From a virus: a stretch of DNA of 46,243 nucleotides. The stretch spans positions 1 through 46,243 of IMG/VR virus record IMGVR_UViG_3300045999_012529; one strand, written 5' to 3'. Both the position numbers and the translations under genes were made by a program. Of the stretch, positions 8,162-46,243 are shown in pieces (within the stretch, counting starts at the first letter, position 1; each line of letters starts with the position of its first letter). The notes beneath the pieces were generated by a model. That model was not told where the DNA came from. It worked only from the letters and a program-made list of their open reading frames with translations, and searched no databases.

Positions 8162-9745
8162 ATGGAAAAGCAGACGTTTGTCTATCCCAGCTCGGACCTT
8201 GACCGCGGCCGCAACATGCTGGCGCTGTTAGGGAGCTTCTGGTCGCGCACCTACAGCCGGTCGGACCAGGTCAACTCGTACGCCGAGGGGACCGCCCTGC
8301 TGGCGGCGCAGAATCACCGGAACCTGCTCGAGGTTGTAGCGGCGATGAGCCGCCTCGACGTGCCGCTCTACCACGCCGAGATGTGGACGCCCGTCGTGCT
8401 GCGCCGGAGTCAGCGCAACGGCGTGCTCACGAACATCGCCCGTTTTGACCGGACGACCGAGACTTTCGACGGCAGGCTCGTTTTCGACACAGCCGCCGGG
8501 CAGCCGTTCTTCGCGTTCCCCAAGCCAGAAAAGCTGGTCGCGTCGGCGCAGATCCTGGACCGCCTGACGCAGCCGACGCTCGCCCTCTCTGAGAACGTCG
8601 ACTACACGGTCGACCAGGAGCGCGGCGCCATCATCTTTGTCGAAGATCCTTTCGATAAGCCGAACCTTATCAAGAAAGGCATTTACGACAACGGCGCGCT
8701 AGTTGACGAGGAGATCACGCTCTGGGCTTTCATGGGGCAGTTCGACTACCAGTATGTCTACAGCCAGTTCGCCTATGCCTTGGGCATCAAGCTTCAGACC
8801 AGCCAGGGCTACAAAGATTTCATGAACGCCGTGTTCAGCGGCCTGGTTAACGGCGGCGCCACGGCAGGCGACCTCGACCTGGCGTTTGCGGCGATCACGG
8901 GCGTGCCGGTTTCTCTCGAGCCGTTAGAGGTTGTCGAAGTTCTTCAGCGAGACGCCCACGGCACGCTGATCATTACAGACAAGCACGTCTATCGCTTTCC
9001 TGAAGACGCCACGCCGATTGTTGCGGTAGGCGACCAGATCCGCGCCGGGACGCAGCTTGTCGACTCGGTTGAGATCGTGGAGCTGACGACCGGCGCCGTT
9101 CCCGAAACGATCAGCGCGTTGGCCCTGGACGAGGGGTTCCTTTCGGCCTGCTTCTACGGCGACCTGGTTTTCGAGAACAAGGACGTGCCGCTCGTCGTCA
9201 ACACGGCGCACCCGTCGGGCTACACCTATTTGCGTTTTGCCCTGGGCGGCTTCCCAGCCGACGTAGAGCGGTTCTTCGACGAGCTGCACATGCGGGGCGT
9301 TGCCGAGGCGGTCCAAATTCCCGATCCGTGCGAGCGGCGCCGTCAACGGCGGGGCACGCTGGCGCATGTTATTGACCGGCGCACAAACCCTGACGGCGAG
9401 CCGACGGTCGATAATCTCCCGACAACCATCAATCCGCTGGCGTTTATCGCGGAAAACATCCTGCGAAACAACGTGTTCCTCGTGCGCATTAAGAGCGCTA
9501 CATTGGGGCAAAATCGGCTAGGTCTGTACAATATGAGGCACCTGCGCCAACTCCTGCCGCCCCAGGCTGCCATGATCGTTATTTACGAGATTGGCGGCAT
9601 CCGGGACGTGCTGGACGGCGAGGAAAACGTGACCGACGCCGCAACCTCGTTTACCGGGATGGAGCCGCAGTTTGACAGCGTGCCCGAAGAGCTGGTCCAG
9701 GACCGCGGGGCGACGCTGAGAGTCATTTCTGGGACGTGCCAATAA
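8162..9745 (+). CDS. large baseplate/tail protein, 527 aa
   Basis: A 527-residue protein seven bases after the gpJ-like gene, with AGGTGA just before the start. The early part (RGRNMLALLGSFWSRTYS) is helical; beta-rich regions follow (YTVDQERGAIIFVEDPFDKP), and the end is a second alpha/beta portion. It occupies the position of a gpI-like or wedge gp7/gp8-like protein, downstream of gpJ, but is longer than gpI. No specific family is recognisable, so baseplate or tail-fibre attachment is inferred from position only. Confidence 0.85.
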   Translation: MEKQTFVYPSSDLDRGRNMLALLGSFWSRTYSRSDQVNSYAEGTALLAAQNHRNLLEVVAAMSRLDVPLYHAEMWTPVVLRRSQRNGVLTNIARFDRTTETFDGRLVFDTAAGQPFFAFPKPEKLVASAQILDRLTQPTLALSENVDYTVDQERGAIIFVEDPFDKPNLIKKGIYDNGALVDEEITLWAFMGQFDYQYVYSQFAYALGIKLQTSQGYKDFMNAVFSGLVNGGATAGDLDLAFAAITGVPVSLEPLEVVEVLQRDAHGTLIITDKHVYRFPEDATPIVAVGDQIRAGTQLVDSVEIVELTTGAVPETISALALDEGFLSACFYGDLVFENKDVPLVVNTAHPSGYTYLRFALGGFPADVERFFDELHMRGVAEAVQIPDPCERRRQRRGTLAHVIDRRTNPDGEPTVDNLPTTINPLAFIAENILRNNVFLVRIKSATLGQNRLGLYNMRHLRQLLPPQAAMIVIYEIGGIRDVLDGEENVTDAATSFTGMEPQFDSVPEELVQDRGATLRVISGTCQ

Positions 9746-37327: not shown

Positions 37328-39253
37328 TCAGTACCCGCTGAAGAACTTATCGCCCAGGTCGTCATCGGCCCAATCGCCTGCAGCTTCTTGGGCCGCCAGC
37401 TGCGCGCTGATGCGCCCGAGCCCGGCGATCTCGGCGAAGTTTGGAAGCGCCTGGTTAATGTGCCACAGCGCGTTCACGCCAAAGTTAACGCTCTGCGCAA
37501 AGTCGTCTGAGAGCAGCACGTTGCGCGTGATCGTGTAGATGTCGCCGGAGCTGCGGCTTTCAGCTTTGTTTTCAACCAACGCCAGGAAATCGGCGATCAG
37601 GCCGGGATTGTCTTGCGACACCCAGTCGTACTGGAAAAAACGAACCTGCTGCAGTTTAATTGCCTGGCAGGTGTACAAGAGCGACCTAGTTTTATCCAGG
37701 CTGTAATGCGCCCGGTGATTAAACGGAGTCGGCTCCTTGTACACCATCAAGTCCTGCGCCGCCGAGCGACAGAGGCGCAGCGCCATGACCCGGTCCAGGT
37801 TGAATCCGGCCTGCACCATCACGGTCTCGCGCACAGTTCCGGCGCCGGTGTAGTCGTGCGCCACAAAGTCGCACTTGAACAGCTGTGAGTACTTCATGCA
37901 CTCAACAGCTTCAGCCAGATGCTCGCCGCCCATCATCAGGCGCTTACCCCACAAGACGTCAATTACGCCGTCGTGGCGGAAGCCGAGAACAGAGACCACC
38001 GTAAACGATATACCCGCTTCGCCACCGCCACCCCAGTCGATGGCCAGGATGCGGTGTTTGTAGTAGTCAATGTTCTCGAGGCAGGCTGGCTCTGGCTCGC
38101 GTTTGTTCTCCCACGGAAGCAGGCAGGCGTTTCTCAGGTCCGTCTCGGTCACAAGTTTCTGGCCCGCGTCAATGCTTTCGCCAAGCACCTCGTTGTAGAA
38201 CTGCGCAGGCGTGTAATTGAAGCCTTCCCGTTTCATGAGCAGCGTCGCCCATTTATCCGGGTCGGCGTAGTGGAGCGGGAGCAAGATCTGCGGCACGTGA
38301 TATCCCGCGAAGACCCATCGACGATCCGGATGTCGATGGACCCAGCGGCCGTGCCTTGGATTAATCGGCTTCTGACATTTAGCGCAGACCGTAGCGGGCG
38401 CCTTCTCGCTGATGTCGTCTCGATACGGGCCGATCATTGCGTCAAGGTCGTGTTCTCGCGATGGAATGTTCCAGTGTCGACAGTGCGCGCACGGGATAAA
38501 CCACTCCGCAGCCGAGCTGCGCTGATATAACCCCTCTAGGGGGTTGTCTAGGGTCTTTGGGGTGCCCGTGAAATGACTCATCGCAAACCGGGAATACGAC
38601 ATGGTCTCTTGGATAATCGGAATATGATCGGGGTCCATGTCCTGGACTTCGTCAATACACATCCGGTCGCTGGAGACACCACGAACCCGGTCGGCGTCAA
38701 GCATTGCATAACTGAACAACATCATGCTCTTGTTGCGGAACGACCGCTGAAGCACGTTGTTGTCTGTCTCAGTGCCGCACCACTGCGCCTTAATCGGCGA
38801 CTGGTCAATAAAGCTTCGCACGTAGTTGTTGCTGAACCGACGAATCTGTTCAAACAACGGCGTTACATACAGCGTTTTAAAGAACGGAATGCTGTTGGCT
38901 ACCACAACACCGTGCGCCGCCAACGAGGTGGATTTTGAAAGCTGTCGGCCGGTTTTCCAGACCTGCGACTTCGGCATGAGCACCCTGAACAAGGGCGCAA
39001 ATGGAAAATGATCGTGAATAGAGTACGGTTTACCGTTTAGGTTTAACACCAACGGCAAGATCGGCTCGAGCGACGGAAAAGCACGCTGCTCGGCTAACGC
39101 CTTGAGTACGTGCATCCGTTCCTGTGCGGACGCCTGGTCCGTCACGTCAATCGACGTTAGTTCTGTGAGCAGCGAACGAACACCCGTGTGGGTGACCTCG
39201 CAAGCTGCTGATTCCAGCGGACTCACCACCCGCTCTTTTATCTCTGGTGCCAT
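37328..39253 (-). CDS. terL: terminase large subunit (GpA-like architecture)
   Basis: From the ATG at 39253 the protein has 641 residues, the size of lambda gpA; upstream sequence up to 39577 is open but lacks coding character. Walker A is T101GRQLSKST109, a deviant but recognised terminase type; Walker B is MCIDEVQD with D201 E202; a motif III-like TGTPKT follows. A zinc ribbon lies between domains (CAHC at 255-258, CAKC at 290-293). Nuclease residues D406 (AIDWGGG) and D467 (HDYTG) and a late DDF are present. It drives DNA packaging. It is alone on the minus strand; no small terminase is next to it. Confidence 0.95.
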   Translation of the reverse strand: MAPEIKERVVSPLESAACEVTHTGVRSLLTELTSIDVTDQASAQERMHVLKALAEQRAFPSLEPILPLVLNLNGKPYSIHDHFPFAPLFRVLMPKSQVWKTGRQLSKSTSLAAHGVVVANSIPFFKTLYVTPLFEQIRRFSNNYVRSFIDQSPIKAQWCGTETDNNVLQRSFRNKSMMLFSYAMLDADRVRGVSSDRMCIDEVQDMDPDHIPIIQETMSYSRFAMSHFTGTPKTLDNPLEGLYQRSSAAEWFIPCAHCRHWNIPSREHDLDAMIGPYRDDISEKAPATVCAKCQKPINPRHGRWVHRHPDRRWVFAGYHVPQILLPLHYADPDKWATLLMKREGFNYTPAQFYNEVLGESIDAGQKLVTETDLRNACLLPWENKREPEPACLENIDYYKHRILAIDWGGGGEAGISFTVVSVLGFRHDGVIDVLWGKRLMMGGEHLAEAVECMKYSQLFKCDFVAHDYTGAGTVRETVMVQAGFNLDRVMALRLCRSAAQDLMVYKEPTPFNHRAHYSLDKTRSLLYTCQAIKLQQVRFFQYDWVSQDNPGLIADFLALVENKAESRSSGDIYTITRNVLLSDDFAQSVNFGVNALWHINQALPNFAEIAGLGRISAQLAAQEAAGDWADDDLGDKFFSGY

Positions 39254-39424
39254 ATGTCCCAGTATCAAACCCGTGACAGTGTGCGGGAGTCCGACGATGT
39301 AGTCGCTGAGCTGCAGTGGCTGGAAGACGGCGTGAACATTATCGCCGCCGAAGGCCTGCGCTGCGCAACGACGATTGTCTGCGGGCTCTTTCAACTTCTC
39401 TCTGGCAACGCCGAGAAAAGCTGA
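39254..39424 (+). CDS. small hypothetical protein, 56 aa
   Basis: A plus-strand frame from ATG at 39254, directly abutting the terminase start in CATATG, codes MSQYQTRDSVRESDDVVAEL onward. Acidic N-terminal helix, then a hydrophobic CATTIVCGLFQLLSG that may be a short membrane or amphipathic helix. Codon use looks coding, but no Shine-Dalgarno is visible and no family was recognised. It would be a divergent partner of terL. If real, it could be leaderless. Confidence 0.5.
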   Translation: MSQYQTRDSVRESDDVVAELQWLEDGVNIIAAEGLRCATTIVCGLFQLLSGNAEKS

Positions 39425-39434
39425 ACCGTAACAC

Positions 39435-39477
39435 GCAACCTGGCAGAGTATACTAGACCGTGGCTCTGCCAGGTTGC
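39435..39477 (+). terminator. 14-bp perfect inverted repeat, leader or terminator
   Basis: GCAACCTGGCAGAG (39435-39448) and CTCTGCCAGGTTGC (39464-39477) are perfect arms around a 15-base loop that holds TATACT. No U-run follows. It lies between a tiny plus-strand gene and the Shine-Dalgarno of the gene at 39493, so it may be a terminator of the first, a leader hairpin for the second, or an operator. Confidence 0.5.
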
Positions 39478-39492
39478 CTACGGGAGAATACG

Positions 39493-39726
39493 ATGGCATC
39501 AGTTGGACACAGCGCGAAGCTCTACCAAGAACGACGCCAACCCGATATTCGGAGCACGTTGCGCGGCCCGGGCCCACAGGTATCGCTGTGGCAAAATATG
39601 GCGCACCACCTCAGCCTCGAAGCACCGTTGCCACTGCCTGATTACCAACAGGTCGAGAACGGTTGTCCACCCACGGACACCGGTAAGACCCAGGTGTGGC
39701 CACACGGAGATACCTACGCACCATGA
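39493..39726 (+). CDS. hypothetical protein, 77 aa
   Basis: ATG at 39493 follows GGGAGA by six bases. The 77-residue protein is Pro/Gln/His-rich with little regular structure; MASVGHSAKLYQERRQ at its start. The 3' end overlaps the next start (ATGA). No family was recognised. A leader hairpin precedes it. Confidence 0.65.
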   Translation: MASVGHSAKLYQERRQPDIRSTLRGPGPQVSLWQNMAHHLSLEAPLPLPDYQQVENGCPPTDTGKTQVWPHGDTYAP

Positions 39727-40666: not shown

Positions 40667-40964
40667 CAATTCAAAAAGCGATACCACCGAGATCTCTATC
40701 GCCGCCGACAACGACACGCTGCAACAGCTGCTCGACAATCAGTACGGGCACCTCGAGGCTGGAGAAGCGCGCGCGGCGTTAGAAGAAACCTACCCCAGTG
40801 TCTGGAATGAAGACGAGTTTAATGCTACGTTCAATCTCGTCGAGAACGCCCCGCCTTATGTCACTGCAGTGCACAAAGAAACCGGGCAGCTCGGTACGCT
40901 GATTTACGTGGACAGTCCGCGGTTCTATTTCCTGTTCAACCCCGAGATCAAAAATGGCGAATGA
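40659..40964 (+). CDS. hypothetical protein, 101 aa
   Basis: ATG at 40659; the upstream frame is not used. The 101-residue acidic protein has YPSVWNEDEFNATFNLVEN and a beta hairpin toward the end (LGTLIYVDSPRFYFLFNP). No family was recognised. It overlaps the diphosphohydrolase-like gene by 11 bases. Confidence 0.7.
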   Translation: MADNSKSDTTEISIAADNDTLQQLLDNQYGHLEAGEARAALEETYPSVWNEDEFNATFNLVENAPPYVTAVHKETGQLGTLIYVDSPRFYFLFNPEIKNGE

Positions 40965-41415
40965 AGCCAGGCACCACTTCGACACCGGCGCGGTTCGCTC
41001 CGCAGACCGCGACGAGGAGCGCTGGGACTTGATCAGCCCGATTGCGATGCGGGCGCTGGCCCGAACGTACGCTGAGGGCGCGCGCAAGTTTGGCGCCGCG
41101 AATTGGGAAAACGGAATGCCGGTCACGGATCTACTCAATCACGGCATCGCGCACGTCTACGCGTTCTTGAGCGGCGACCGATCAGAAGATCACCTGCCGC
41201 ACGCAATCTGGAACTTGATGGCCGCGGTTCACAGTCTCGAGCTGTGGCCGGAGTTGAACGACGGTTTGCTGCGGGGACCTGGTTGCACATGCCCACCGGC
41301 GGCAACCAAACCCAAAGCCGAAGATCAAAAGATATCTAAGGGCCCGCTCGAAGTGCGCGAGCGGCTAGACGCCATGCGGATGAAGGCGCAGACCGCCAGC
41401 ATCAGCTCGACGTAA
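40954..41415 (+). CDS. dATP/dGTP diphosphohydrolase-like N-terminal domain protein
   Basis: The 153-residue protein contains FDTGAVRSADRDEERWDLIS, then AMRALARTYAEGARKFGAAN, WENGMPVTDLLNHGIAHVYA, DRSEDHLPHAIWNLMAAVH. This is the pattern of the phage family known as dATP/dGTP diphosphohydrolase N-terminal (DUF5664), an all-helical fold that in some phages is linked to nucleotide-pool changes. The C-terminal 40 residues are a charged tail that carries a palindrome copy at 41328. No purZ-like gene is in the window. Confidence 0.8.
   Translation: MANEARHHFDTGAVRSADRDEERWDLISPIAMRALARTYAEGARKFGAANWENGMPVTDLLNHGIAHVYAFLSGDRSEDHLPHAIWNLMAAVHSLELWPELNDGLLRGPGCTCPPAATKPKAEDQKISKGPLEVRERLDAMRMKAQTASISST
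41328..41339. repeat. dispersed palindrome AAAGATATCTAA, site 9
   Basis: Core AGATATCT at 41330-41337; frame AAG ATA TCT (Lys-Ile-Ser), a third frame for the same DNA word. Confidence 0.7.
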
Positions 41416-41518: not shown

Positions 41519-41555
41519 TTGCATTCTGAATTTCCCGCAGTATGGTGGAATTCAG
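41519..41555 (+). promoter_or_regulatory. promoter-like region with inverted repeat before the winged-helix gene
   Basis: TTGCAT (41519-41524) and TATGGT (41541-41546) are 16 bases apart and fit a sigma-70 promoter moderately. CTGAATT (41526-41532) and AATTCAG (41549-41555) form an inverted repeat over spacer and -10, as an operator would. A further TTGTGC/GCACAA pair lies at 41445-41463. The 207-base gap 41416-41622 contains no gene. A winged-helix protein follows and could autoregulate. Confidence 0.5.
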
Positions 41556-41622
41556 TCTCGCGCTACGTATGTGCGTGGCGCGATTAGTCCAAAACCACAA
41601 AAGTTGTCAGCAGGAGCAGACC

Positions 41623-41988
41623 ATGGCGTTCAAGACGTATAAGCCAACCAAAGCCGATCTCATGCGGGCGTTCATCGCTCAGCGCCGCGCCGAAGGCAAG
41701 ATCGTGCGACCCAAGGAAATCATCGACGAGATGGCGCGGAACGGAATCACGATTTCTAGCGGCCAGGCGTCCGTTGTGCTGCGCAAGTTCAACAAGCGTC
41801 GCCGGACCGTTTGCGCGACGGCCAAAGTTTCTTCCAACGGGACCGGCGCGTGCGCGATCAAAAAGACCAAGGAGCACGACGGCCTGATGCTGGCCTCCCA
41901 GTTCGCCCGAAACTGCGGCAGTATTTCGCAGGCCAAGAAAATGCTTGCGGCTCTGGAACAAATCGTTGACCCGTTCGTCCGGTCGTGA
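41623..41988 (+). CDS. winged-helix-like regulator (paralogue A), 121 aa
   Basis: ATG at 41623 follows AGGAG by seven bases. The N-terminal 60 residues form a helix-turn-helix (KADLMRAFIAQRRAEGK, RPKEIIDEMARNGITISSG, QASVVLRKFNKRR). The C-terminal tag LASQFARNCGSISQAKKMLAALEQIV is similar in layout to the gene at 42032. Such HTH-plus-helical-tag proteins are, from memory, typical of planctomycetes. A regulator is likely. It has an upstream promoter and inverted repeat. Confidence 0.8.
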   Translation: MAFKTYKPTKADLMRAFIAQRRAEGKIVRPKEIIDEMARNGITISSGQASVVLRKFNKRRRTVCATAKVSSNGTGACAIKKTKEHDGLMLASQFARNCGSISQAKKMLAALEQIVDPFVRS

Positions 41989-42031: not shown

Positions 42032-42754
42032 ATGAGCAATATTGAAGATAGTGCGCTTTGGGACGCCACTGAGCCGTTTGAAAACCAAGAACGGCCGGAA
42101 CCCAACGCGAAGAAAACACGGACGAAAAAGAACGGCACGGACGCCGAAATCGTTCTCCCCGAAACTGACGAAACGTTTGACCCCGTGCCACAAGAGCCGG
42201 GCGAACTGATCGACGGATCGGAAGACGATATTTCCGCGCTTGAAGAGCAGGATCCGACTGCTCCCGTTGAGGTCGCTGTTGACCTTGACGATCGTGCCCG
42301 GGCGGTTGCGGCTGTGTCCGCTGCCGCCCAAAAGAGGAGTGAAGAACCCATGTCCGAAGATAAGAAGACCAAGGCGGAGCTGATCCGCGACGAGATTGCC
42401 GCGCGCAAGGCAAAGAGCGATGACCCGATTCGTCCACGAGACGTGATCGCGGCGCTGGCTGATCGGGGTATCAAGGTCGCGGCGCCGCAGGTGTCTGTGG
42501 CACTGCGCGACTTTGGAAAGCCGTCGGCCGCCAAGGCAGCGGCCAAGGGCGAGAAGAAGAAGACGGCGGCAGAACCAAAGCGCGTCGCTGCCAAGGTCCG
42601 GTCCGCTGTTTCGGCAAAGAGCACGCCCGCGGCCAACGAGCCGTCTTACGCGGCGCTCGAAAGCGTGGCGGCGTTTGTGAAGGGCAGCGGCGGTGTCGAA
42701 ACCGCGCGGCAGCTTCTTGACGCCTACTCGCGGTTGTTCAACCAAGCAGGTTGA
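42032..42754 (+). CDS. winged-helix-like regulator (paralogue B) with long N-terminal part, 240 aa
   Basis: The first 105 residues are acidic and low complexity, then MSEDKKTKAELIRDEIAARK starts the HTH, followed by RPRDVIAALADRGIKVAAPQ. A Lys/Ala-rich linker comes next (AKAAAKGEKKKTAAEPK). The C-terminal LESVAAFVKGSGGVETARQL repeats the tag of paralogue A. An in-frame ATG at 42350 with GGAGT upstream could yield a shorter form. The Shine-Dalgarno AGAGGA precedes 42032. A DNA-binding role is inferred. Confidence 0.8.
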   Translation: MSNIEDSALWDATEPFENQERPEPNAKKTRTKKNGTDAEIVLPETDETFDPVPQEPGELIDGSEDDISALEEQDPTAPVEVAVDLDDRARAVAAVSAAAQKRSEEPMSEDKKTKAELIRDEIAARKAKSDDPIRPRDVIAALADRGIKVAAPQVSVALRDFGKPSAAKAAAKGEKKKTAAEPKRVAAKVRSAVSAKSTPAANEPSYAALESVAAFVKGSGGVETARQLLDAYSRLFNQAG

Positions 42755-42772
42755 TGTAGGTTTTCTGTCGAC

Positions 42773-42886
42773 TGCGCGCCGGGTGTCCCAGTATGTAGCG
42801 TCACGTGATTGCTACGTGCTGGGCCCCGGCGCAGCATGTCCTTGATTCGGGCACGCTGCCCACCCGCGCGACTTATCTGGTCGCGC
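42773..42886 (+). ncRNA. structured leader with three hairpins
   Basis: A long hairpin (42773-42833) has TGCG, a CG bulge, CCGGG, then CCCAGTATGTAGC (42787-42799) pairing with GCTACGTGCTGGG (42811-42823) through two G-T pairs, and a loop with CACGTG. It is followed by GGGCA-cgc-TGCCC (42849-42861) and GCGCGAC-ttatctg-GTCGCGC (42866-42886). The Shine-Dalgarno CACGGAGGTT of the gene at 42903 follows at once. The G-T pairs suggest RNA rather than DNA function. A leader or regulatory RNA is inferred. Confidence 0.5.
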
Positions 42887-42902
42887 TGCTCACGGAGGTT
42901 CT

Positions 42903-43184
42903 ATGCCCACAGCATGCCCTCTGCAATCTCGTCGGGGTTACCAGCCCATGACGATGCCAGCAGGGACCATCAAACGCATTCATGTAAACCAGCACATTAT
43001 CAAGGCGAATGTCGCCGCAGACGCGGATGACCACGCGGTCACCGTGCAGTGGAAAGGCAAAAGCTACGTAGCTCGCGACGTCCAGATCAAAGGCCCCAGC
43101 ACAGCTATGCAGCGAATGCGCAAGCCCCTAAGCTGCGGCGCCCGAATTTGGATTGAGACTCGAGCCGAAGTGGAGATTTTATGA
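42903..43184 (+). CDS. conserved phage hypothetical protein, 93 aa
   Basis: The 93-residue protein contains IKRIHVNQHIIKAN, a KSYVARDVQIKGPST strand region and KPLSCGARIWIETRAEVEI. From memory this 'HVNQH.IKAN...PLSCGARVW.ET' pattern is a common phage family of unknown function; the cysteine and terminal strands are conserved. GGAGG stands five bases before ATG 42903, behind the structured leader. An in-frame ATG at 42948 (MTMPAGTIKR) could be an alternative start. Confidence 0.8.
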   Translation: MPTACPLQSRRGYQPMTMPAGTIKRIHVNQHIIKANVAADADDHAVTVQWKGKSYVARDVQIKGPSTAMQRMRKPLSCGARIWIETRAEVEIL

Positions 43185-43492
43185 ACCGCTATCACGAGAC
43201 CCAGCGCGACGAGGACTTCGGCAGCCTGACCAACGCGCTGCAATACCTCGATCAAATTCGCGATACTTTTGGCGATGTGCTCGCCATTCCTGAAGTGGTT
43301 ACCATCCAGGACGTCATGGCCATCGCCCTGGACACCACTAAAGGACCCCAGCTCATTGGCGACGTCTGCAGCCGCGACGAGATCGTCCATATCCTCCAAG
43401 CCTTCGCCGACAATCCTTGCGGCGACCCGGCTCTAATTGCGCAGTACGCGCTCAATGACTATCGCGAAACCCAACTCACCAGTAAGGAGTGA
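43181..43492 (+). CDS. hypothetical protein, 103 aa
   Basis: The 103-residue protein overlaps the previous gene by four bases (ATGA). It is helical and acidic, with LQYLDQIRDTFGDVLAIPE and DEIVHILQAFADNPCGDPA. No family was recognised. It directly precedes the DUF1257 gene. Confidence 0.7.
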   Translation: MNRYHETQRDEDFGSLTNALQYLDQIRDTFGDVLAIPEVVTIQDVMAIALDTTKGPQLIGDVCSRDEIVHILQAFADNPCGDPALIAQYALNDYRETQLTSKE

Positions 43493-43494
43493 TC

Positions 43495-43857
43495 ATGTCG
43501 CACATCGTGCAGATCAAGACGGAAGTGAAGGACGAGATGGCGGTTCGTGCCGCCTGCCTGCGCCTGAAGTGGGAGCAGCCCACCTTCGGCAAGTTCCGCG
43601 TGTTCGGTGTCGACCGCGAGGGCCTTGGGGTGGAAATCCCCAGCTGGCATTACCCGGTCGTCGTCAACCTGTCGACCGGCGCCGTGGACTTCGACAACTA
43701 CAACGGCCACTGGGGCGAGCAGAAGCTGCTTGACCAGTTTCTCCAGGCCTACACGATTGAAAAGGCCAAGCTCGAGGCGCAGAAGATGGGCCACTCGGTG
43801 TATGAAGAGCCGATGGCCGATGGTTCGATCAAGCTCACTGTCACCGTGGAGGCCTGA
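43495..43857 (+). CDS. DUF1257 (Ycf35-like) protein, 120 aa
   Basis: ATG at 43495 follows AAGGAG. The 120-residue protein begins MSHIVQIKTEVKDEMAVRAA and has YPVVVNLSTGAVDFDNYNG, HWGEQKLLDQFLQAY and a C-terminal ADGSIKLTVTV, all marks of DUF1257. This family includes plastid and cyanobacterial Ycf35, of unknown biochemical function. The next two genes, DUF2997-like and an AAA+ ATPase, complete a trio known in several bacteria. Confidence 0.9.
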   Translation: MSHIVQIKTEVKDEMAVRAACLRLKWEQPTFGKFRVFGVDREGLGVEIPSWHYPVVVNLSTGAVDFDNYNGHWGEQKLLDQFLQAYTIEKAKLEAQKMGHSVYEEPMADGSIKLTVTVEA

Positions 43858-43862
43858 CCAAC

Positions 43863-44054
43863 ATGACCAAGATCATCGAAATCGTTGTTTCCCCCAAGGG
43901 CGAAGCCAAGCTCGAGACCAAGGGTTTCGCGGGCAGCGGATGCCAGGAAGCCACGCGGGCCCTCGAAGCTGCGCTGGGCGCCAAGACCGACGAATCCCTG
44001 ACCGGTGAGTATTACACCGAGGTCAACACCAACCAGCTCGACGTCCAGAACTAA
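43863..44054 (+). CDS. DUF2997-like small protein, 63 aa
   Basis: The 63-residue protein has IIEIVVSPKGEAKLETKGF, then GCQEATRALEAALG, and LTGEYYT. This matches DUF2997, a small family regularly found next to DUF1257 genes. Five bases separate it from its upstream neighbour and nine from the AAA+ gene. The role is unknown. A ubiquitin-like or small adaptor function has been suspected for the family by its size; this is not shown here. Confidence 0.85.
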   Translation: MTKIIEIVVSPKGEAKLETKGFAGSGCQEATRALEAALGAKTDESLTGEYYTEVNTNQLDVQN

Positions 44055-44063
44055 GGAGCACAG

Positions 44064-45557
44064 ATGAATCTTTCCCAGCAGATCAAAGAACTTGTGTGCG
44101 CGGGCTTCTCGGGCATCTGGGTCGACACTCAGGAGTCCGACGACGCCGTGGCCACCGTGAAGAAGCTCTGCGAGGAGCGGGACTGGGGGTTTGAGGTCTG
44201 GGACCTTGACCGCCAGCTCTGCGTCCACAACGCCACGCCCGCGCCCGGCCCTGTCCAGGCGCTGCGCTGGCTCGACACGCAGGACGCCCGGGCCAAGAGC
44301 ACGCAGCTTCTGCTGCTCAAGAACTTCCACAAGTATCTGCCCAACCCCGAGGTGATGCAGGTTCTCCAAAACCGCGTCATCACCGGCAAGGCGATCGGCC
44401 AGCACATCGTCGTGATGAGCCCCGTGCTCCAGCTGCAGCCGGAGATCGAGAAGCTCTTCACGATCGTTCACCACGAGCTGCCGGACCGCGTGCAGTTGAC
44501 CACCATTGCCAACGAGCTGTTCACCGGCGAAGGCAACACGTTTGAGAAGCCCAGCGACGAGGTGATCTCGAGCGTGATCGACGCCGCCAGCGGTATGACC
44601 CGCCTGGAGGCCGAGAACGCGTTTGCGCTCTCGCTGGTCCGGCACAACACCCTGAGCCCGGACGTGATCTGGAATCTCAAGGCGCAGACCCTGGAGAAGG
44701 CTGGCACCCTGGCCCTCTACCGGGGCGACGCCAGCTTCGACGGCCTGGGCGGCCTCGATAACCTGAAGCAGTTCTGCCTGCGCGCCATGAAGCGCCAGGG
44801 CGAAGCTGACCCCGAGCGCCGTCCCCGCGGCGTGCTCCTGCTCTCGCCTCCGGGCTGCGGCAAGTCGCAGTTCGCCAAGGCGCTGGGCAACGAAGTGGGC
44901 CGCCCGACCGTGGTGCTCGACTTCGGCGCGCTGATGGGCAAGTTCGTCGGCGAGTCGGAGGGCAACATCCGCCGGGCTCTCGCCCTGGTGGACGCGATGG
45001 CGCCCTGCATCCTGTTCGCCGACGAGATCGAGAAGGCGCTCTCTGGTGTGGGCTCGAGCGGCCAGACCGACTCGGGCGTCACGGCGCGCCTCTTCGGCAC
45101 GTTCCTCACGTGGCTCAACGACCACAAGTCGGACGTGTTCTTCATCGGCACCTGCAACGACGCCAGCAAGCTTCCGCCCGAGTTCACTCGTGCGGAGCGC
45201 TTCGACGGCGTGTTCTTCGTGGACCTGCCGACGGCCGACGCCCGGAACTACATCTGGGAGCTGTACCTCAACAAGTTTGGTCTGGACAAGAACCAGTCCA
45301 AGCCGGACGACTCGAACTGGACCGGCGCCGAGATCAAGAGCTGCTGCCGTCTGGCGGCCCTGCTTGGCGTCTCGCTCGTCGAGGCCGCGTTCAACGTGGT
45401 GCCAGTGGCCGTGACCAACGCCGAGTCGATCGCCAATCTGCGCTCGTGGGCCGATGGTCGGTGCCTGAGTGCCGACAACAAGGGTTACTTTAAGAAGGCC
45501 GCTGTTAAGGCCAACGAGCCGGGCACCCGCCGCCGCGTTGCGCCCAGCTCCAACTGA
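44064..45557 (+). CDS. AAA+ ATPase of the Ycf46 type, 497 aa
   Basis: The 497-residue protein has an N-terminal non-AAA domain (GIWVDTQESDDAVATVKKL), as Ycf46 proteins have, then the ATPase: Walker A S261PPGCGKS268, Walker B CILFADE with D320 and E321, sensor-1 GTCND (N365), and R376/R379 in TRAERFDG as arginine finger candidates. Length and layout match Ycf46. Such AAA+ proteins remodel protein partners. The stop overlaps the palindrome at 45557. Start is preceded by AAGGAGCA. Confidence 0.9.
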   Translation: MNLSQQIKELVCAGFSGIWVDTQESDDAVATVKKLCEERDWGFEVWDLDRQLCVHNATPAPGPVQALRWLDTQDARAKSTQLLLLKNFHKYLPNPEVMQVLQNRVITGKAIGQHIVVMSPVLQLQPEIEKLFTIVHHELPDRVQLTTIANELFTGEGNTFEKPSDEVISSVIDAASGMTRLEAENAFALSLVRHNTLSPDVIWNLKAQTLEKAGTLALYRGDASFDGLGGLDNLKQFCLRAMKRQGEADPERRPRGVLLLSPPGCGKSQFAKALGNEVGRPTVVLDFGALMGKFVGESEGNIRRALALVDAMAPCILFADEIEKALSGVGSSGQTDSGVTARLFGTFLTWLNDHKSDVFFIGTCNDASKLPPEFTRAERFDGVFFVDLPTADARNYIWELYLNKFGLDKNQSKPDDSNWTGAEIKSCCRLAALLGVSLVEAAFNVVPVAVTNAESIANLRSWADGRCLSADNKGYFKKAAVKANEPGTRRRVAPSSN

Positions 45558-45619: not shown

Positions 45620-46243
45620 ATGAGCACAACTCTCGACGAGGCCCCGCCAGGCGTTCCCGCAGGCGACGGCGCCCCGGTATCTGAAGCCGCGCAGGAAATG
45701 CGCGCTTCGATGGGCGCGGTGGAACTGAGCTTCACCTGGCTCGGCACCCAGCGCAAGCTGGCCGACAGCCAGACCCGCCAGGCGGCCGACACCTTCCACG
45801 CCGATGCCAAGAGCGTCCGCGCCAGCAAGGTTCTTATTGACGCCAAGCATCCGGCGTATCGTGCGGCCACAGTCATTCGCAGTCAGGCCCGTGGTTTTCT
45901 CCGCGGTATCAGTCTGCCCTATCCCCAGGAAGGCGTGCGCCTCATCAAGTACGACGACATCTCGCGCTTCGAAGCGCAGATGCTGGAGTTCCGCGAGCGG
46001 CTCGACAATGCCGTGGCGACGCTCCAGGAGCACTACGACGCGATCAAGGCAGATGCCCGTGAGCGGCTGGGCGACCTCTACAACGCAGCCGATTACCCGG
46101 CTAGCCTGGAGGGCGTCTTCAGTCTCACATGGGATTACCCCAGCATTGAACCGCCGGAGTATCTGCTCAACTACAACCCAGGGCTCTACCGGCAGCAGCA
46201 GGCCCGAGTCCAGGAGCGCTTTGAGCAGGCCGTAGTCCTGCTT
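45620..46243 (+). CDS. hypothetical protein, 3' end outside window (208 codons seen)
   Basis: The frame is open to the last base of the window, so only 208 residues are visible. ATG at 45620 follows AGGAG by five bases. The N-terminus is Ala/Pro-rich; then FTWLGTQRKLADSQTRQAAD, LPYPQEGVRLIKYDDISRFE, and MLEFRERLDNAVATLQEHYD, a helical stretch with the pattern of DUF3150-like phage proteins, from memory. The following LGDLYNAADYPASLEG is consistent. The role is unknown. It may start a new operon after the terminator. Confidence 0.8.
   Translation, partial: MSTTLDEAPPGVPAGDGAPVSEAAQEMRASMGAVELSFTWLGTQRKLADSQTRQAADTFHADAKSVRASKVLIDAKHPAYRAATVIRSQARGFLRGISLPYPQEGVRLIKYDDISRFEAQMLEFRERLDNAVATLQEHYDAIKADARERLGDLYNAADYPASLEGVFSLTWDYPSIEPPEYLLNYNPGLYRQQQARVQERFEQAVVLL

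Follow-up and report, generated by a model that had tools for sequence, protein, structure and literature searches.

Whether a phage-borne set of genes built around a Ycf46-like AAA+ ATPase is cargo for phage-host conflict or part of the standing machinery of the phage is the question raised by the locus described here. It lies near one end of IMG/VR virus record IMGVR_UViG_3300045999_012529, a record of class linear whose 46,243 bases are referred to below as the window.

Composition of the module

Three intact genes on the plus strand were confirmed as open reading frames, encoding a DUF1257-like protein of 120 aa (43495..43857), a DUF2997 protein of 63 aa (43863..44054) and a Ycf46-like AAA+ ATPase of 497 aa (44064..45557). 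They run in one direction with spacers of 5 and 9 bp. The presence of tail-fibre genes and of a terminase large subunit gene in the same window (37328..39577, minus strand; phrog_675, E 9e-51) bears out the claim of an earlier sequence-only reading that the trio is carried by a phage. The gene unit extends past 45557. A further gene, X, begins 62 bp past the AAA gene on the plus strand (45620..46243) and continues past the window end, so that the window holds the first 208 of ~320 aa. In complete relatives, from which the remaining members are known, a hexapeptide-repeat gene (c9) comes next after X, and then a gene of ~85 aa (c8).

On the terminase side, three phage genes on the plus strand (42032-42754, 42903-43184 and 43181-43492) flank the module across the stretch 42032..43492. 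A dATP/dGTP diphosphohydrolase-like gene (40954-41415; PF18909, E 1.8e-15) is located between the terminase gene and the module, and cross-matches in relatives suggest that the genes at 41542-41988 and 42032-42754 are paralogues of each other.

The AAA+ motor protein

The AAA domain matched PF00004 (E 4e-26), and phrog_8638 aligned across residues 5-471 (E 1.6e-77). The conserved Walker A motif (SPPGCGKS, residues 261-268) is encoded at 44844..44867 and the Walker B acidic pair, D320-E321, at 45021..45026, both on the plus strand. We counted ungapped sequences in an alignment with 68 phage and 106 other relatives and found that G264, G266, K267, S268, D320, E321, N365, R376 and R379 were kept in essentially all of them, the sole exception among the catalytic positions being the first Walker A residue, which is S instead of G in many AAA relatives. 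This near-universal conservation upholds the previous assertion that the Walker and sensor residues are intact and suggests that the protein is very likely active.

Furthermore, the protein combines the hallmarks of a Ycf46-like classic AAA protein, namely one active-type domain with Walker A and B, sensor 1 and two arginine fingers, preceded by an N-domain of ~220 aa. It shares ~30% full-length identity with cyanobacterial AAA proteins adjoining DUF1257; the libraries scanned gave no Ycf46 model. Residues 1-217 (44064..44714, plus strand) lack a Walker A motif, and an AlphaFold2 model of this region (pLDDT 88) adopts an AAA+ fold, for which the best Foldseek matches were RFC (E 3e-7) and FtsH (E 2e-6; TM 0.54-0.61). 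The simplest reading of the model is that a degenerate first AAA+ domain precedes one active classic-AAA domain, and membership of the family suggests that the protein would assemble into a ring.

PADLOC and NCBIfam related the AAA domain alone to IetAS (IetA, E 4e-16). This assignment was rejected, given that no subtilisin-like protease was present and that the partners are DUF1257, DUF2997 and X. In gp103 of Tunturiibacter phage Tunturi_3 (L005, 3689-5284), the Walker B segment precedes Walker A, with their order swapped inside the AAA domain; no relative of this protein was found in IMG/VR.

Partner proteins

The DUF2997 protein matched the whole PF11211 profile (57.2 bits against a cut-off of 24.1; E 1.5e-15). 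In contrast to this clear match, the DUF1257-like protein, which starts at ATG 43495 with an alternative in-frame GTG at 43489, scored below the curated threshold of PF06868 (16.2 bits against 22.2; E 0.012), although it matched phrog_20456 (E 8e-5) and an iterated profile linked it with DUF1257 proteins of dozens of phage and bacterial loci. Since DUF1257 homologues adjoining the AAA gene in other phages (L004, L005 and L007) exceed the Pfam cut-off, these intermediates place the window protein in the DUF1257 family.

X is 314-322 aa long in complete relatives, with full-length copies 56-98% identical. Within the lineage of the window, X proteins stayed below the curated cut-off of PF11348 (DUF3150; best E 0.007), whereas relatives reached this profile with E values of 5e-11 to 5e-26, those of the X proteins of other module-bearing phages being 8.5e-15 to 5e-26. 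The predicted X fold (pLDDT 89) aligned with that of a viral DUF3150 protein (TM 0.73/0.79), and its matches were confined to viral DUF3150 models, nothing among solved structures having an E value below 0.28. Together, the intermediates and the predicted fold identify X as a probable divergent, helical DUF3150-type protein. Dylan gp94, a candidate homologue at most, gave a weak fold match (E 6e-3) and no profile match; at the single locus checked in mycobacteriophage Dylan, DUF1257 and DUF2997 were not found.

The c8 protein carries a conserved RASHVEP...W.ADL motif. It is found with the trio in Verrucomicrobiota and in three isolate phages (SM1, L338C and Tunturi_3), which argues that it is a general partner of the trio.

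Distribution and conservation in phages

A search with an AAA profile retrieved 78 viral loci, several of them on contigs of 197-205 kb, and the module was situated ~4 kb from the terminase gene in most. The order DUF1257-DUF2997-AAA-X-(hexapeptide gene)-c8 recurred in dozens of phage contigs. All four genes, from DUF1257 to X, are under purifying selection (dN/dS 0.03-0.36), with values of 0.10-0.29 for DUF1257, 0.11-0.36 for DUF2997 and 0.09-0.21 for the AAA gene. Moreover, in several relatives (L203, at 8939-9721, and L204, L205, L206, L208 and L233) the AAA gene is split by an intron of group I (RF00028, 67-73 bits) that separates the Asp codon of Walker B from the Glu codon and contains an HNH-type open reading frame, the splice junction and the HNH assignment being read off the sequence. 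Group I introns usually occupy conserved, expressed genes.

JAB was absent from the eight phage contigs of 197-205 kb searched, and no E1 (ThiF) exceeded the cut-off in four phage records of the window's family. A ubiquitin-like conjugation operon of the Bub or 6D-like kind, both components of which occur in several Planctomycetota loci, was thus rejected for this family.

Some viral contigs are arranged differently. The core is followed by Ubl and E1 in L201 and, as in Planctomycetota, by a PD-(D/E)XK gene in L207 and L215. Three distant phages (L232, L234 and L235; viral contigs of 89-181 kb) have genes for AAA, a RecA-like protein, DUF2997, an NrdG-like protein and DUF1257; ~4 kb upstream of the AAA gene lies a ThiF-like E1 gene, joined in L234 by a JAB-like one. 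These three loci form an independent link between the AAA family and ubiquitin-like conjugation.

Isolate phages SM1, L338C, RcTiptonus and Tunturi_3 and Corndog-like mycobacteriophages also encode AAA proteins of this type, 24-30% identical overall to the window protein. DUF1257 and DUF2997 are present in the first four. A tblastn search for DUF2997 in isolate phages was uninformative owing to the shortness of the query. These modules differ from that of the window in placing AAA first, lie far from it in the tree and have separate histories; the low identity and long branches ruled out the isolate-phage proteins as close relatives.

Relatives in Planctomycetota and their defence setting

The nearest bacterial relatives of the AAA protein belong to Planctomycetota (48-58% identity, compared with 29-38% for other bacteria). 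In a tree of 108 AAA sequences, nine phage sequences formed one clade (support 100) within a Planctomycetota clade (98), with L018, L021 and L022 as tree neighbours. The gene order points in the same direction: Planctomycetota loci such as that of Blastopirellula marina DSM 3645 (L028) share both the genes and the order DUF1257–DUF2997–AAA–X–c8 with the phages, unlike the Myxococcota and isolate phages examined, which have AAA first. We had started from the proposal that the phylogeny might reveal a host-to-phage transfer, and the nested phage clade fits such a transfer; the phage family apparently took the module from Planctomycetota, and the phage host is likely to be found in this phylum.

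The trio had been described beforehand as consecutive in many cyanobacteria and some planctomycetes. The latter part was correct, the full trio being consecutive in Planctomycetota as well as in Myxococcota and Verrucomicrobiota, but the former applied only in part to the cyanobacteria sampled. Their Ycf46 (AAA) genes adjoin Ycf35 (DUF1257) and encode proteins with ~30% full-length similarity to the phage AAA protein, but DUF2997 was not found within 6 kb, neither it nor X stands beside AAA, and the proteins fall far outside the phage and Planctomycetota clade.

In the cell-borne form, where the phages have a hexapeptide-repeat gene and neither JAB nor E1, the core is followed by one of two cassettes: Ubl–c30–JAB–E1 (L019, L020, L036, L122 and L126) or c18–GLSKK–PD-(D/E)XK (L029, L123, L124 and others). 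Pfam matches supported both (ThiF, 8e-25; Prok-JAB, 9e-6; ThiS-like Ubl, 1e-4; PDDEXK_1, 4e-31). X occurs patchily, in 7 of the 149 Planctomycetota genomes sampled and in up to five copies per genome. Among hand-picked proteins near these modules we recognised type I methyltransferases of type I R-M (L117 and L125), BREX PglW (L118), Gabija GajA and GajB (L122), DISARM DrmD (L124), PDC-S68 (L115) and a Lamassu LmuA-like gene (L029). As a control, we took 106 proteins from ten arbitrarily chosen regions of these genomes; among the best 25 of 42 families, the sole matches were of the kinase type and concerned two proteins. The defence-island setting of the Planctomycetota copies is therefore well indicated, with the enrichment being indicative rather than a measured value.

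In L019 and L020, the module directly adjoins transposon genes of the TniA/TniB/TniQ type, which suggests that these copies ride on a Tn7/Tn5053-like element. A further copy, that of Desulfamplus magnetovallimortis (L052), includes a true DUF3150 gene; its surroundings look phage-like and contain genes of the ERF and single-strand-binding types.

In-place exchange with MoxR–VWA genes

We sampled the locus via the terminase gene, so that the presence of the module was not selected for, and retained the 52 contigs whose flank measured 5.5 kb or more; these contigs, from IMG/VR, are partly redundant and represent fewer independent phages. The module was present in 38 of the 52, and the remaining 14 carried genes for a MoxR-type AAA protein and a VWA protein; no contig had both, and none had neither. 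The terminase-side genes hold their position in both locus types (that at 42032 in all contigs checked, that at 43181 in most), and the far-side gene order is kept as well where comparable (L140 versus L190). A terminase tree implied at least two switches between the states in 99% of bootstrap trees, a count that recombination between the terminase gene and the locus, 4 kb apart, could affect. In L166 (10254-12023), the terminase gene is in several pieces, possibly reflecting introns or sequencing errors.

The exclusion extended to whole records: no copy of the MoxR protein was found in eight whole module contigs of 197-205 kb, no AAA module in whole MoxR-type records, and no match to CobT_C, which represents the VWA partner, in three module records (G002, G003 and G168). 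The two machines are unrelated. The replacing MoxR protein matched PF07728 (E 1e-23), and its closest solved relatives are NorQ/CbbQ and midasin (PDB). The large VWA gene beside it is CobT-like (CobT_C, 40-47 bits summed over the frame) and encodes the MIDAS motif DQSGS. The window protein, in contrast, is a classic AAA protein (PF00004) outside the MoxR/AAA_5 group, scoring 13 bits with AAA_5 against a cut-off of 22. MoxR–VWA pairs (phage CobS/CobT, NorQ/NorD, CbbQ/CbbO and RavA/ViaA) thus resemble the module in coupling an AAA+ motor to a partner and in occupying the same locus in sister phages, and differ from it in clade, in having a VWA partner with MIDAS, and in that no DUF1257, DUF2997 or DUF3150 partners were seen at the sister-phage locus. 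NorQ/CbbQ-type pairs act on metalloenzymes, a point in favour of the metabolic role considered below.

Mutual exclusion, in-place exchange and the lack of an empty site are as functional substitution predicts. A MoxR–VWA pair at the same locus in sister phages probably has the same role as the module, and the fixed place of the module, where nothing but such a pair replaces it, speaks for remodelling as a standing function of the phage.

Interpretation

ATP-driven remodelling of other proteins is an established activity of the classic AAA family and of MoxR–VWA pairs. On balance, we lean towards the view that the locus is an ATP-driven remodelling module for phage growth that is functionally interchangeable with MoxR–VWA. 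We infer that its products act as one complex, in which the AAA+ protein would be the motor ring, its first AAA+ domain being Walker-less and its second an active classic-AAA domain, and DUF1257, DUF2997, the DUF3150-type X and c8 would act as adaptors or recognise the substrate. The module may have passed from Planctomycetota, where it would power conflict-type loci with a ubiquitin-like or nuclease cassette, to a family of ~200-kb phages that retained the motor part only, for their own growth cycle. The most likely task of the module would be to assemble, mature or dismantle a large protein complex of phage or host, and at this locus it would be interchangeable in function with a CobS/CobT-like MoxR–VWA remodeller.

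The most serious alternative, which we consider unlikely, is that the locus is an anti-phage hotspot at which the AAA module and MoxR–VWA both act as immune systems against competing phages, in inter-phage defence or superinfection exclusion. The defence neighbours of the Planctomycetota copies, their patchiness and their swappable cassettes agree with this idea; MoxR–vWA pairs also operate in conflict systems (PMC7159879), and a locus with one of two unrelated cassettes could equally be a hotspot. Nevertheless, the phage locus is never empty and has two states only, which lowers the probability of defence cargo, and the strong purifying selection, the intron within the AAA gene, the lack of JAB and of E1 over the cut-off in the phage genomes tested, and the lack of a recognisable effector in the phage cassette all argue against it. 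The initial suggestion of a mobile unit in phage-host conflict stands in part: a conflict background is plausible because cell-borne copies often adjoin known defence systems, but the phage copy is fixed in place and does not behave as variable cargo.

Counter-defence appears less likely still. Here, the phage would use its version of a defence ATPase of the host to remove, outcompete or misdirect host defence assemblies, for instance by acting on phage proteins modified with ubiquitin-like proteins, and the derivation of this version from a Planctomycetota module tied to Ubl-JAB-E1 cassettes and defence islands, with the motor retained and the conjugation genes gone, is compatible with this role. 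MoxR–VWA would then need to do the same job in sister phages, however, while no target-bearing host is linked to these phages and an intact module is not what a stripped-down decoy would look like.

Least probable is a metabolic helper role, in which the module would aid the insertion of a cofactor or metal, cobalamin or similar, in support of nucleotide metabolism. Some authors assign phage CobS/CobT to cobalamin (PMC8651126), in Synechocystis the DUF2997 and DUF1257 genes cluster with that of a ferredoxin (PMC4284462), and the diphosphohydrolase-like gene is close by. Against this, the module has no similarity to chelatases, no VWA/MIDAS protein or cofactor-enzyme gene was found in it, and a cobalamin role leaves the Ycf46-type stand-in unexplained.

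Returning to the remodelling module, the exchange bears on a dispute over the purpose of the MoxR–VWA (CobS/CobT) genes found in phages of numerous groups: in archaeal tailed viruses they have been assigned to cobalamin synthesis (PMC8651126), and for jumbo phages a part in virion assembly has been suggested, on the model of Acidianus two-tailed virus (PMC7824862). Replacement by a Ycf46-type module fits remodelling and misfits a chelatase-specific role, and an ATP-driven remodeller is hence favoured. The gene families are known, and AAA genes of this type have already been annotated in phages. In a literature search that left most subscription journals outside its scope, we found no report of the five-gene unit, of its Ubl or nuclease cassettes, or of the MoxR–VWA exchange; in the full texts searched, neither DUF2997 nor Ycf46 is treated as a phage module, and DUF3150 goes unmentioned.

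A bolder reading, which we put forward tentatively and hold to be possible rather than probable, is that the Ycf46-like AAA protein, DUF1257, DUF2997, the DUF3150-type protein and c8 constitute an undescribed AAA+ chaperone, whose cell form drives ubiquitin-like conjugation or nuclease immunity in Planctomycetota and which has become standing growth machinery in phages as a true substitute for CobS/CobT. DUF1257, DUF2997 and DUF3150, all of them widespread and of unknown function, are in any case tied to one AAA+ motor, which in Planctomycetota is linked to ubiquitin-like conjugation and defence islands. An unrelated AAA+ module at the same place is a natural experiment that limits the question to jobs within reach of both machines and opens it to testing; if the module is a true substitute, the phage CobS/CobT pair would be a remodeller of protein complexes rather than a cobalamin enzyme.
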